Assembly: GCA_944388075.1 (NCBI GenBank)
Contig: CALXHI010000037.1
Span: forward strand, 17,363-81,362
From: an uncultured Clostridia bacterium
GTDB taxonomy: Bacteria > Bacillota > Clostridia > Oscillospirales > Ruminococcaceae
DNA length: 64,000 nt
Direction of reading: 5' to 3'
The notes beneath the pieces are model-generated. The model was given only the letters and a program-made list of their open reading frames with translations. It had not been told where the DNA came from and ran no database searches. The position numbers and the translations under genes are program-made. This document shows positions 53,571 through 58,375 of this stretch, piece by piece (within the stretch, counting starts at the first letter, position 1; each line of letters opens with the position of its first letter).

Positions 53571-53676
53571 GTCGTTTTGACGCATGATTAAGCGATGTGT
53601 TCGATATACCGATTCACAATTCGACAATCTTCGACGCACTTCGCTGCTGCTTTCTCATTTTTCCTTCCATGAATCC

Positions 53677-53705
53677 TTGTATTTCGCAAATTAATATGGT
53701 ATAAT
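53677..53705 (+). promoter_or_regulatory. Promoter of the Spo0A-like gene
   Basis: TTGTAT (53677-53682), 17-bp spacer ending in TGG, TATAAT (53700-53705). The -35 is imperfect but the extended -10 is strong. No Spo0A box (TGTCGAA) was seen next to it, though TTCGAC-like sequences (around 53600-53635) are present. Confidence 0.7.
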
Positions 53706-53766
53706 AGAATAATCATTCCGGTTTATGAAATGGATACCCTCCCCGCATCCAAAAGGAGTTCCCCTT

Positions 53767-54576
53767 ATGAGTCACCAATTGCGCATTCTTCTCAATATCC
53801 CAATCTTTCTTCGGTCTGCCGCTATCATGCAGGTCATTCAAAACGCAAACTTCTGGCACTGTGTCTGCGAAAACAATGCCCACAGCATCCGAACCAACTA
53901 TCAACGCATCCAACCGGACTGCGTTTTGCTTTGCGTCAACCAATTGAATGACGATATGAAGGAAACGCTCTGCCACATTCATAAGGAGATCGGCAATCGC
54001 CTGTTTTTGCTATACGCACAATGTACATCTATCTCCCAATTCGTGGCTATGGCATTACCGGAAGCGCAGCAGCTGCCCTGTGATGCACGGCTGCTGCTCG
54101 ACCGCATCATCGGCGTGAGTGCCACCCATTTGCCATTTTCACATGACTATGCTTTCGGTCGATCGGCGGCAGTCGCATTGAGCAATGCCACAACCCATAT
54201 CCTAACAGAGTTTCACATCAATCCGCAGATGCAAGGCTACTATTTTTTACGTTCGGCATTACAGTACATATTTTGCAGTTCCATCCAAAAGCCCAATATG
54301 AGTCGGGACATTTATCCAAAACTCTCCGCACATTATTGCAGTTCGCCACAGCGAGTGGAACACTCCATGCGTACCGCCTTGCATCATGCCTATTCATTGC
54401 ACAACGCCACCGATGATACGGTATACGGGAAATCTCCTGCGAAAAATCGGCAAGCTCCGTCCAATCGAGAATTTTTATTGAACGCACATGCGCTGCTGCG
54501 ACAGACATTGCAGGAACAGGGAATTTTAGAAGGTATGCTGCTCTTACTGGCACCGCAAACAGAGGATTGCCGCTAG
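53767..54576 (+). CDS. Spo0A-like transcription factor with degenerate receiver domain
   Basis: 269 residues. The C-terminal part (about 140-246) matches the Spo0A DNA-binding domain: QGYYFLRSALQYI near 156, DIYPKLSAHY near 181, the recognition helix PQRVEHSMRTALHHAY (194-209) and PSNREFL near 231. The N-terminal part (1-110) has receiver-like strand order but none of the needed residues: the DD pair at 10-11 is NI, and the phosphoacceptor position is C56 in DCVLLC. The switch Thr and conserved Lys are also missing. It therefore cannot be activated by phosphorylation and may act as a constitutive, ligand-controlled or antagonistic regulator. ATG 53767 has AAAAGGAG upstream. Confidence 0.85.
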   Translation: MSHQLRILLNIPIFLRSAAIMQVIQNANFWHCVCENNAHSIRTNYQRIQPDCVLLCVNQLNDDMKETLCHIHKEIGNRLFLLYAQCTSISQFVAMALPEAQQLPCDARLLLDRIIGVSATHLPFSHDYAFGRSAAVALSNATTHILTEFHINPQMQGYYFLRSALQYIFCSSIQKPNMSRDIYPKLSAHYCSSPQRVEHSMRTALHHAYSLHNATDDTVYGKSPAKNRQAPSNREFLLNAHALLRQTLQEQGILEGMLLLLAPQTEDCR

Positions 54577-54695
54577 GGCGACACCGCACAAAGATTGTGC
54601 GTCAGATGCACAGTCGTTTTTTTTGTGAAATATGACGGAAAAAGCGCAAACAGATGGCGTGCAAAGCCGTCAGGCGGTCTTTGTGCGGTGTTGCC
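54577..54695. mobile_element. MITE-like element, short copy (119 bp)
   Basis: Same terminal inverted repeats as 20719-20889 (GGCGACACCGCACAAAG / CTTTGTGCGGTGTTGCC). The sub-terminal sequence is shared, but about 50 internal bases are missing. The left end abuts the TAG stop of the Spo0A-like gene and the right end abuts the reverse-strand stop (TTA) of the AI-2E-family gene. It can fold back on itself and so may act as a bidirectional terminator. Confidence 0.8.
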
Positions 54696-56357: not shown

Positions 56358-57752
56358 TCACGACGCTGTAATAGTATAGCCCGGTGCCTGGTACGGCCGC
56401 TTGCCCGAACCACAGCGAATATCCGAATACACGCCGGCAATTGCATCCCATGTCGCTGCATTGACCACACCCGTGACCGGCAGCCCGTATTCTTTCTGAA
56501 ATGCCTGCACAGCGGATTTGGTAATCGGTCCGAAATAGCCGGTGTCGGAAACAGCCGGTATCGCCGGATCATGCTGCGACAAATAGGTCAGGTATTGCTG
56601 GATTGTCCTCACATTCTCACTGGTCACGCCTTCACGCAATATCTCCTGTGGAAACAGCCTGCCGCAGCCCGTATCCGGTTCCGACTCCAATATGCCCTGA
56701 TAGGCGGCATATAATTCATTCCATGTTTCACGATCCATGATACCGGTTTGCGGCAATCCAAACGTTTTCTGAAAACTACGTACCGATGCGGTTGTCTGTT
56801 CATCGTATTGTCCGGTGATCTGTATGGGAGTCACCGAAGCATAGTATGCCCCGACAACCGCCAAATAATATTGAAAGGATCGGACAAATGGTCCGGAATC
56901 GCCCGGCTGTAAAAGACTCGGATGATCCTGCGGAATTTCGCCGTAGGTCACACCCTCCGATTCCAATTCCGCAAGCTGCTTGACACTCGCATAAATATAG
57001 GAAATCTGATACCATGTCGCCTCATCGACTGCGCCGGTCGGATTAAGGTTGAAGTTACGCTGAAATGCCTCGACTGCCTCCTGTGTCTGTGTATCAAAAA
57101 CACCGTCCACGGCTGCAATCTTTGGAATGTTCGGGAAATTGTTGGAGATGCGGTTCAGCTGTGTCTGGATGATCTGCACATCATTGCTGACCTCTCCATA
57201 GGTAAGCACACGATCGGGATAGGATTCGGTCGTGTTGCGAATATCGGTCGCCTTGACCAGCTCGATGTCCTCCCCGTAGTAATGCTGCAAAATCTCAAAC
57301 GGCGTATAGCCTTGCTCTGCCAATTCCACCGTGCCCCACTGCGACAATCCGGCACAGGTCACGGTCGTACCATTGCAAAACGAGGTGAACATTGGCTCAA
57401 TCGAACCGATTCTTCGCACATAATAGGTGTACAGTTCATCGACCAATCGGCTGATGTTGTCGAAAATTTCTCTGCCGTATACAAATGCCTGATCATATTG
57501 TGTCGAGTTGGTAATGTCAAAGTCAAAGCCGCGAGAGCGATACCATTCCGTATAAATGCGGTTGAGTACAAAGCTCGTAATGACATAGATATTCGCCCGC
57601 AGCGCATTCTCCGGCCAGGTCGGATACAGTTCACTCGAGGCAACATTCTTGATGTAGTGCGGAAACGATACCGTCACATTCTCCGCATCGGATTTCGGTG
57701 CACCCAGATGGACGGTAATGGTTTCCGGAATAAAAGGTGGTCCGGTCAGCAT
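56358..57752 (-). CDS. SpoIID-like protein with three peptidoglycan-binding repeats
   Basis: 464 residues. The N-terminal part (about 20-180) resembles SpoIID/LytB: ENALRANIYVITSFVLNRIY near 48, QYDQAFVYGR near 90 and CAGLSQWGTVELAEQGYTPFEILQHYYGE near 135-163. It lacks a visible catalytic Glu in the usual place, so activity is uncertain. Three PG_binding_1 units follow (roughly 190-265, 285-360, 385-455), each ending in TWxxI. There is no signal peptide, so export would need another route, or it acts inside the mother cell as in spore morphogenesis. AAAGGAG supports the ATG at 57752. Confidence 0.8.
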   Translation of the reverse strand: MLTGPPFIPETITVHLGAPKSDAENVTVSFPHYIKNVASSELYPTWPENALRANIYVITSFVLNRIYTEWYRSRGFDFDITNSTQYDQAFVYGREIFDNISRLVDELYTYYVRRIGSIEPMFTSFCNGTTVTCAGLSQWGTVELAEQGYTPFEILQHYYGEDIELVKATDIRNTTESYPDRVLTYGEVSNDVQIIQTQLNRISNNFPNIPKIAAVDGVFDTQTQEAVEAFQRNFNLNPTGAVDEATWYQISYIYASVKQLAELESEGVTYGEIPQDHPSLLQPGDSGPFVRSFQYYLAVVGAYYASVTPIQITGQYDEQTTASVRSFQKTFGLPQTGIMDRETWNELYAAYQGILESEPDTGCGRLFPQEILREGVTSENVRTIQQYLTYLSQHDPAIPAVSDTGYFGPITKSAVQAFQKEYGLPVTGVVNAATWDAIAGVYSDIRCGSGKRPYQAPGYTITAS

Positions 57753-57766
57753 GGCGGCTCCTTTCG

Positions 57767-58375
57767 TCAATACTGCTGCATCGGATTGTAAAACCGAACG
57801 CCCTCATTCATCTGTGCATCGGGCGTTCCGAGTGGCAGCGGAATCAGGTCAAAGGTTTGCATCGAGATAATATTCGGGAATACCGGTATGTTCGAACTGT
57901 GCTCCCGATAATAGCCCGGCGCATAAACCTCAATGTCATAGTAATATGCGGTCGGGTGTCGCTGATCCGGCGTCGGCGGCGGTGCTTCCACCTGCACTGC
58001 CGGCACATAGCCACTGCTGTCCGTCACCTGTACCGCAATCAAATGCTGTGCATCACCTACAGTGCGATAGACCATCAAGGTCGCATCGGCCACCGGTCGT
58101 GCGCCCCTCGCCGTTGTGACGTTCAACCGCAGCGTACCGTAATAGCGCTCCCCATTCTCCGGCATCGGCTGCTCATCGGTTGCATCCGGCACCACAATCG
58201 GTGCTTGATCCTCCGGCAAGGGCATGGGGCTGCTCTGCGGCGGTGGGGTCGGCATGGGAAACTCCGGCGGCGGTGGAGTCGGTCTTGGCGGCACAGTCTG
58301 CCCGGACTGCCCATACATCTGCTCCATCTGCTCCCGATATCGGCGTGCAGTTTCTGCAAATTCCTGCTGATTCAT
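57767..58375 (-). CDS. Proline-rich protein with carboxypeptidase-regulatory-like domain
   Basis: 202 residues. A coiled/Glu-rich start (MNQQEFAETARRYREQMEQM) is followed by a Pro-rich linker (about 38-75) and one beta-sandwich domain (about 85-175) with GTLRLNVTTARGARPVADATLMVYR and SSGYVPAVQVEAP. This resembles CarboxypepD_reg/Big-like folds. The end is Gln/Tyr-rich. First of the three-gene minus-strand cluster with the SpoIID-like and PG-binding proteins, so probably part of a cell-wall or spore structure. ACGGAGG precedes the ATG. Confidence 0.72.
   Translation of the reverse strand: MNQQEFAETARRYREQMEQMYGQSGQTVPPRPTPPPPEFPMPTPPPQSSPMPLPEDQAPIVVPDATDEQPMPENGERYYGTLRLNVTTARGARPVADATLMVYRTVGDAQHLIAVQVTDSSGYVPAVQVEAPPPTPDQRHPTAYYYDIEVYAPGYYREHSSNIPVFPNIISMQTFDLIPLPLGTPDAQMNEGVRFYNPMQQY

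Follow-up and report, generated by a model that had tools for sequence, protein, structure and literature searches.

A Spo0A paralogue lacking the phosphorylation residues of its receiver, with putative tandem 0A boxes at its own promoter, and a clade of related copies across its genus

In this paper we describe a computational analysis of a single gene, P0001, and of its relatives. The gene lies in a window of 64,000 nucleotides (64 kb), by which we mean the whole stretch of DNA that was analysed, and its host bacterium is likely an uncultured relative of Ruminococcus champanellensis from the gut. The encoded protein is a diverged relative of Spo0A, a textbook developmental switch thrown by phosphorylation. 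The following elements were assigned to the gene, with positions referring to the window.

53600..53606, minus strand: possible third 0A box, reading TTCGATA on the plus strand, 1 mismatch, offset -100 from the -10 element and in 10-bp phase
53620..53626, minus strand: putative 0A box, reading TTCGACA on the plus strand, the exact reverse complement of TGTCGAA, at -80 from the -10 element and -147 from the ATG
53630..53636, minus strand: putative second tandem 0A box, reading TTCGACG on the plus strand with 1 mismatch, at a distance of 10 bp from the box at 53620 and at -70 from the -10 element
53677..53682, plus strand: weak -35 element TTGTAT (3/6), read from the sequence and absent from the list of the generic promoter scan
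53700..53705, plus strand: -10 element TATAAT (6/6), 17 bp after the -35 element
53754..53758, plus strand: ribosome-binding site AGGAG, read from the sequence
53767..54576, plus strand: coding sequence of P0001, a Spo0A paralogue whose receiver is degenerate, 269 amino acids plus stop
53767..54129, plus strand: receiver-derived domain, residues 1-121, with 5/5 phosphorylation residues replaced
54193..54480, plus strand: Spo0A_C DNA-binding domain, residues 143-238, with Pfam, PDB and structure matches
54346..54399, plus strand: residues 194-211, forming the predicted recognition helix, with counterparts of E213 and R217 preserved, R214 replaced by His and H218 by Thr
54593..54615, plus strand: stem-loop resembling a terminator, with a T run behind it, from the terminator scan

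As the original prediction had it, P0001 is an isolated gene. The phosphoesterase gene upstream of it, on the same strand, ends 294 bp away, and the gene downstream is on the opposite strand. The promoter of its own that had also been proposed has a perfect -10 element, but the -35 element is weak, and it is because of the 3/6 score of the latter that the TTGTAT/TATAAT pair is missing from the list of the generic promoter scan, which gave no excess. Terminator-like sites numbered 3 in the scanned region versus 1.4 expected from shuffles. Among the neighbours thought to be of sporulation type, BofA was recovered above cut-off (PF07441, 35.3 bits), whereas the SpoIID-like match fell short of it (20.6 versus 23 bits). 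The protein with this sub-threshold stretch, encoded at 56358-57770 on the minus strand, carries three peptidoglycan-binding repeats and is possibly related to the spore envelope. No kinase was found in a scan of the 10 ORFs neighbouring P0001. GC content by codon position in P0001 is of the coding type, and its codon score, 0.09 versus 0.23-0.42 for the neighbours scored in the correct frame, is above zero in the frame of the gene and below zero in the two remaining plus-strand frames. The protein cluster of P0001 comprises 3 member sequences on 3 contigs, no close homologues were found beyond this cluster, and a search of named contigs with P0001 gave none.

The Spo0A-type DNA-binding domain, whose proposal hung on a match of the C-terminal region to Spo0A_C, is borne out by the profile search. 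Spo0A_C (PF08769, residues 143-238) is the sole Pfam domain above cut-off in P0001 (E 4.6e-14, 52.7 bits, cut-off 25). The best PDB matches of the protein are the Spo0A structures 1fc3 and 1lq1, and the latter reaches a TM-score of up to 0.85, by target length, with the P0001 model.

For the N-terminus a receiver-shaped domain had been proposed, with another known sensor domain as the possibility to be examined. Pfam gave no match to residues 1-121, not even with the receiver family PF00072, and neither Pfam nor NCBIfam gave any other sensor domain there. When a two-sequence profile of P0001 and its sister copy L069 was aligned by hhalign with the receivers of 15 relatives, both canonical Spo0As and members of the paralogue clade described below, a probability of 96.9 and an E value of 1.4e-10 were obtained over 118 columns. 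The AlphaFold model (pLDDT 77.6), for which a 16-row alignment including canonical Spo0As was used, consists of five beta-alpha units followed by the Spo0A_C helices, and with it Foldseek retrieved 1lq1/1fc3 and CheY-like receivers; a single-sequence prediction (pLDDT 42.6), meant to test the fold separately, was uninformative. By profile alignment and model the N-terminus is receiver-derived, with a predicted (beta-alpha)5 fold, in agreement with the proposed shape.

In the alignment, the place of the acidic pair is taken by I11-P12, that of the phosphoacceptor by C56, and those of the switch Thr and of the Lys by Leu in both cases. The earlier statement that every phosphorylation residue is missing is right in this respect, including C56 and the loss of Thr and Lys, but the acidic pair had been read as N-I and aligns to I11-P12 instead. 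From the missing Asp we infer that P0001 probably functions independently of Asp phosphorylation. We also considered Cys56 as a conserved redox switch and rejected it. The expected conservation is not there: the residue is Thr in the sister copy and Asn in 12/22 rows of the clade, and the 29 other genus genomes searched gave no close orthologue.

The search for a canonical Spo0A elsewhere in the genome, which had been suggested along with the prediction, found one. The genome of the window (2.2 Mb, 99.9% complete) includes SpoIVA and encodes 3 proteins with a Spo0A_C domain: the canonical Spo0A (153 bits), with all phosphorylation residues present and 73% identity to Spo0A of Ruminococcus champanellensis; a second degenerate copy, L069 (105 bits), in which Thr replaces the phosphoacceptor; and P0001 (54.5 bits), about 20% identical to the canonical copy.

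Spo0A_C proteins were then sought in 41 genomes, 25 of them from the genus, with a match in 38, and a tree of 61 rows was built; the truncated canonical copy of one genome (G016, L014) was excluded from the tree and from the counts of residue conservation. In this tree 22 rows from 20/25 genus genomes form a paralogue clade, which we named Spo0A2 for this analysis, with support of 100/99 and apart from the 21 canonical copies of the genus that are full-length. P0001 is no lone oddity: the clade to which it belongs, a family absent from the original prediction, spans the genus and has at least 22 members. It pairs with L069 (support 96/84), on branches of 4.18 and 1.85 changes per column, respectively; both are long, so this sister pairing can be a long-branch artefact. 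P0001 has the longest branch in the tree and is a composition outlier. L069 is also the best match of P0001 in the 30 genus genomes searched, several of them incomplete (25% identity, E 6e-18), and no close orthologue was found there outside its own genome.

The phosphoacceptor Asp is absent from 15/22 Spo0A2 rows versus 0/21 canonical rows of the genus, with 12 Asn, 1 Cys, 1 Thr and 1 Ile in its place. Four Spo0A2 rows (L072, L073, L074, L087) retained the acidic pair, the Asp and the Lys, and because none of the four falls within the clade's core of 15 rows, the loss of these residues looks stepwise. Seven alignment columns are invariant over 19 Spo0A2 rows, P0001 included. The copy of G013 (L074:5604-6260), in which the phosphorylation residues are kept, is interrupted by an in-frame TAG.

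SpoIVA was matched in 26/30 genus genomes. In this set, where several genomes are incomplete, G015 and G017 had neither SpoIVA nor any Spo0A_C match, in G041 and G045 SpoIVA was not found though Spo0A_C proteins were present, and in G004, G007 and G018 Spo0A2 was not found though SpoIVA was present. With the Spo0A2 protein of a genus member as query, relatives were detected at 4 loci on named contigs, 2 from uncultured Ruminococcus sp. and 2 from Oscillospiraceae bacterium (water-buffalo, sheep rumen).

Two stretches of the DNA-binding domain differ in how far they are preserved in Spo0A2. V212, E213, R214 and R217 are retained at 95-100% in the clade, and E213, R214 and R217 are residues which we take to contact the bases of the 0A box. 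R214 is present in 21/22 rows, the remaining one being P0001 with His; P0001 also carries Thr for H218, while the equivalents of E213 and R217 are retained. Residues 223-242, presumably the stretch with the sigma-A contact and activating segment (227-240), have the canonical letter in 17% of Spo0A2 rows on average versus 63% for the recognition stretch 206-222, with F236 present in 36% of rows and V240 absent throughout. In a set of 15 Spo0As from other families, which includes one second copy, R226, G227, F236, G237 and Y238 are invariant. Within 227-240, P0001 has lost G227, Y238 and V240, has Tyr for F236 and keeps G237. In Bacillus subtilis Spo0A, mutations in 227-240 reportedly abolish sigma-A-dependent activation while DNA binding stays, although our literature search for a paper on such mutations and sigma-A activation found none. 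Since 223-242 is lost and the recognition core kept, Spo0A2 proteins would bind 0A boxes without activating, and so compete, provided that the presumed role of the segment holds here.

The core of the 0A box is TGTCGAA according to the part of PMC3485338 accessible to us. TTCGACA-atc-TTCGACG, upstream of P0001, is the only 10-bp tandem in the window at no more than 1 mismatch per box, and the boxes at this promoter are predicted Spo0A sites, as matches to the binding-site sequence. A looser tandem pattern gave no excess in the same genome (5 matches versus 3 for the reversed control).

Other members of the clade share the tandem pattern. The upstream regions (250 bp) of 21 Spo0A2 genes were collected, including that of P0001, where the pair was first spotted, and leaving out L087 (G011), whose start is unsure. 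In 14/21 of them two 0A boxes follow each other at 10 bp and depart from the consensus in no more than 2 of 14 bases, whereas dinucleotide-preserving shuffles (200 rounds) gave 0.05 on average and never more than 1, control spacings of 7-9 and 11-15 bp at most 1/21, and the other strand 0. Seven upstream regions have no such pair (L069, L072, L073, L074, L081, L035, L054); the one of L069 has a pair with 3 mismatches in which one box is exact, and a box at -80. For 22 genes, i.e. the 21 and L125, the position of the boxes was counted from predicted -10 elements. Of the boxes with at most 1 mismatch located between -110 and -40, 38/39 deviated by no more than 1 bp from a multiple of 10 bp, and a box started at -82 to -78 in 13/22 genes compared with a mean of 0.2 genes and a maximum of 6 for 200 permuted 7-mers; the 22 genes are not independent cases, because close orthologues inherit promoters by descent. 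That the phase of the boxes stayed while the P0001 protein fell to about 20% identity argues for selection on the 0A sites. The Spo0A2 gene of L125 has four 0A boxes in series (L125:1501-1537) in 10-bp steps, 3 exact and 1 with a mismatch.

A scan of the 30 genus genomes for the exact tandem pair gave 10 places in 7 genomes, versus 2 for the reversed control pattern. Seven of the places were assigned: three are by Spo0A2 genes, three by short genes encoding Spo0A_C only, and one by L120; as some tandem pairs sit between divergent genes, it is in some cases uncertain which gene is regulated. Start codons of the extracted genus loci were assigned automatically and not always correctly. The Spo0A_C-only proteins, of about 110 amino acids, are encoded at L056:5909-6238, L058:2855-3184 and L059:1287-1595, and a perfect TGTCGAA-N3-TGTCGAA pair is located just 5' of the -35 element at each of them. 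L120:1601-1924 encodes a stand-alone receiver-like protein of 108 amino acids behind its exact tandem pair. A classical Spo0A target is spoIIA/spoIIAA. Upstream of spoIIAA-like genes an exact box was present in the same orientation at 9/25 genus loci and in the opposite orientation at 0/25, the genes being named by similarity because their matches fall below the SpoIIAA family cut-off.

In our preferred reading, to which we assign a probability of about 0.45, P0001 would be induced by Spo0A~P and, acting independently of phosphorylation, would compete at 0A boxes and damp the output of Spo0A. Canonical Spo0A~P would bind the boxes at the P0001 promoter and activate the gene. The product would dimerise or bind DNA without phosphorylation, and would occupy 0A boxes, or pair with Spo0A or L069, without activating sigma-A RNA polymerase. 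Its abundance, rather than phosphorylation, would set the effect, and a negative feedback would arise in which Spo0A~P raises the paralogue and the paralogue damps the 0A regulon. Such feedback is suggested by the loss of the putative activating segment together with the 0A boxes in front of the gene itself, neither of which figured in the original prediction, and it is for these two reasons that, of the constitutive, ligand-gated and antagonist modes of action offered by the original prediction, we favour the antagonist. Induction is preferred over repression because the boxes lie upstream of the -35 element in helical phase and the -35 of P0001 is weak. As 0A boxes at the B. subtilis spo0A promoter are reported to be mainly repressive (PMC12090719), those of P0001 could repress instead. 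Also counting against this reading are the very long branch of P0001, its low codon score, the lack of a close orthologue in the 29 other genus genomes searched, the four Spo0A2 rows with acidic pair, Asp and Lys, the seven upstream regions without the pair, the loose pattern that showed no excess in the same genome, and the genomes in which SpoIVA was found without Spo0A2 or Spo0A_C without SpoIVA; the joint absence of SpoIVA and Spo0A_C matches in G015 and G017 speaks for it. The exchanges of R214 for His and of H218 for Thr would weaken the DNA-binding step, which leaves room for an altered target or for action through mixed dimers.

The divergence of residues 223-242 also bears on the opposite sign of regulation, in which the Spo0A~P-induced paralogue would be constitutively active and keep the 0A regulon, in whole or in part, switched on, its own gene included. 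This we consider unlikely, as the presumed sigma-A contact is canonical in so much smaller a share of Spo0A2 rows than the recognition stretch, with F236 seldom and V240 never kept. The boxes would nevertheless permit autoregulation, their helical phasing 5' of the -35 element suits activation, and PMC12632262 describes several atypical response regulators that are active, or form dimers, in the unphosphorylated state.

The same substitutions that would weaken binding raise the question of what P0001 recognises, and by sequence it may read another sequence or none. It is improbable, in our opinion, that P0001 reads a changed box and controls a small gene set of its own, with the receiver serving as a structural or protein-interaction module. 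The two exchanges, one of them at an R214 which all other Spo0A2 rows keep, and the very long branch speak for such a shift of specificity, but E213 and R217 are retained, and no target set was found in a search covering 0A boxes. Still less probable is that P0001 is a formerly useful paralogue decaying under relaxed selection and with no present function: its long branch and deviating composition, its codon score, weaker than those of the neighbours, the lack of a close orthologue in the genus genomes searched and the in-frame TAG in the copy of G013 are outweighed in our view by an intact frame of 269 codons with ribosome-binding site, -10 element, terminator-like hairpin and boxes in the phase of the clade, by the 3 member sequences on 3 contigs, by GC content and codon score of the coding type in its own frame, and by the seven columns invariant over 19 rows.

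Compared with known systems, P0001 resembles canonical Spo0A (TIGR02875) in domain order, length, Spo0A_C fold, E213/R217 and 0A-box biology. It differs in having no Pfam receiver match, in the replacement of 5/5 phosphorylation residues, in scoring 39.6 bits versus a cut-off of 200 with the NCBIfam equivalog model TIGR02875, in the diverged stretch 223-242 and in that a canonical Spo0A is encoded elsewhere in the same genome. Two Spo0As of 56% identity are described for Clostridium thermocellum in the accessible part of PMC4890492, Clo1313_0637 being the second one beside the sporulation-essential copy. P0001 is likewise an extra Spo0A homologue in its genome but, unlike that pair, is only about 20% identical to its canonical counterpart. 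With atypical response regulators whose receivers lack the aspartate or are pseudo-receivers, such as ChxR, RitR, HP1043 and GlnR, as presented in PMC4395418 and PMC12632262, it shares a receiver fold that is devoid of catalytic residues and joined to a DNA-binding domain, and also the lack of a kinase, here in the 10 ORFs around the gene. It is unlike them in its Spo0A_C output domain, in coexisting with a phosphorylatable Spo0A and in bearing Spo0A-type sites at its promoter.

Pseudo-receivers are common, the estimates being about 4%, 6% and 13% of receivers in the portion of PMC12632262 seen. Their mode of action is described as poorly understood in the accessible text of this source and of PMC4395418, and the former, a review of 2025, calls their mechanisms of activation and inactivation a major unknown. 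The portions of PMC6136694, PMC11536998, PMC11210211 and PMC3416734 open to us make no mention of a degenerate Spo0A paralogue, and our literature search, with most subscription journals outside its reach, gave no description of phospho-dead Spo0A paralogues or of such feedback in sporulation. The pseudo-receiver of P0001 is in itself ordinary; the unusual thing is the combination of a phospho-dead Spo0A paralogue, Spo0A boxes at its own promoter and a genus-wide clade. Spo0A2 offers a set of pseudo-receivers for which the parent, the likely target DNA and the output domain are known, and the occurrence of this clade, with Spo0A-type sites at its promoters, in species that keep a canonical Spo0A suggests a level of feedback in the control of sporulation, a process which in the gut matters for commensal transmission.

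Finally, the phosphoacceptor was surveyed across the order. From 147 genomes of the order, 138 of them with a match, and from the set of 41 genomes, the best Spo0A per genome was taken, one per genus bar two exceptions. The count rests on 88 resolved proteins from 86 genera. G065 was left out as ambiguous, G034 is cut by a contig end, three extra paralogue rows were excluded, Glu in G132 and Asp in G161 were read by eye, and G038 has Ser. The best Spo0A has the Asp in 65/88 cases, and in 23/88 it is absent, with 12 Glu, 7 Asn, 2 Thr, 1 Ser and 1 Trp in its place (L004, L005, L008, L009, L010, L013, L066, L129, L130, L131, L139, L140, L143, L154, L160, L167, L171, L174, L182, L187, L194, L197 and L200). 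Of these residues Glu may act as a phosphate mimic, which would not be expected of Asn, Ser, Thr or Trp. All of these genomes (23/23) have a SpoIVA match, and 18/23 have a single Spo0A_C match.

A wider proposal, which we regard as doubtful, is that in these gut Clostridia the control of sporulation has moved from phosphorylation of Spo0A to competition between its copies. Phospho-dead paralogues and Spo0A_C-only proteins, induced by Spo0A via tandem 0A boxes, would occupy 0A boxes and set the threshold, and, the best Spo0A having no phosphoacceptor in about one quarter of the sampled genera, the switch would run there without Asp phosphorylation.

Degenerate copies of Spo0A are not confined to the genus of P0001, since a paralogue with a degenerate receiver and Ser at the phosphoacceptor, the latter read by eye, occurs in a sister genus of the same family (L199, genome G177).
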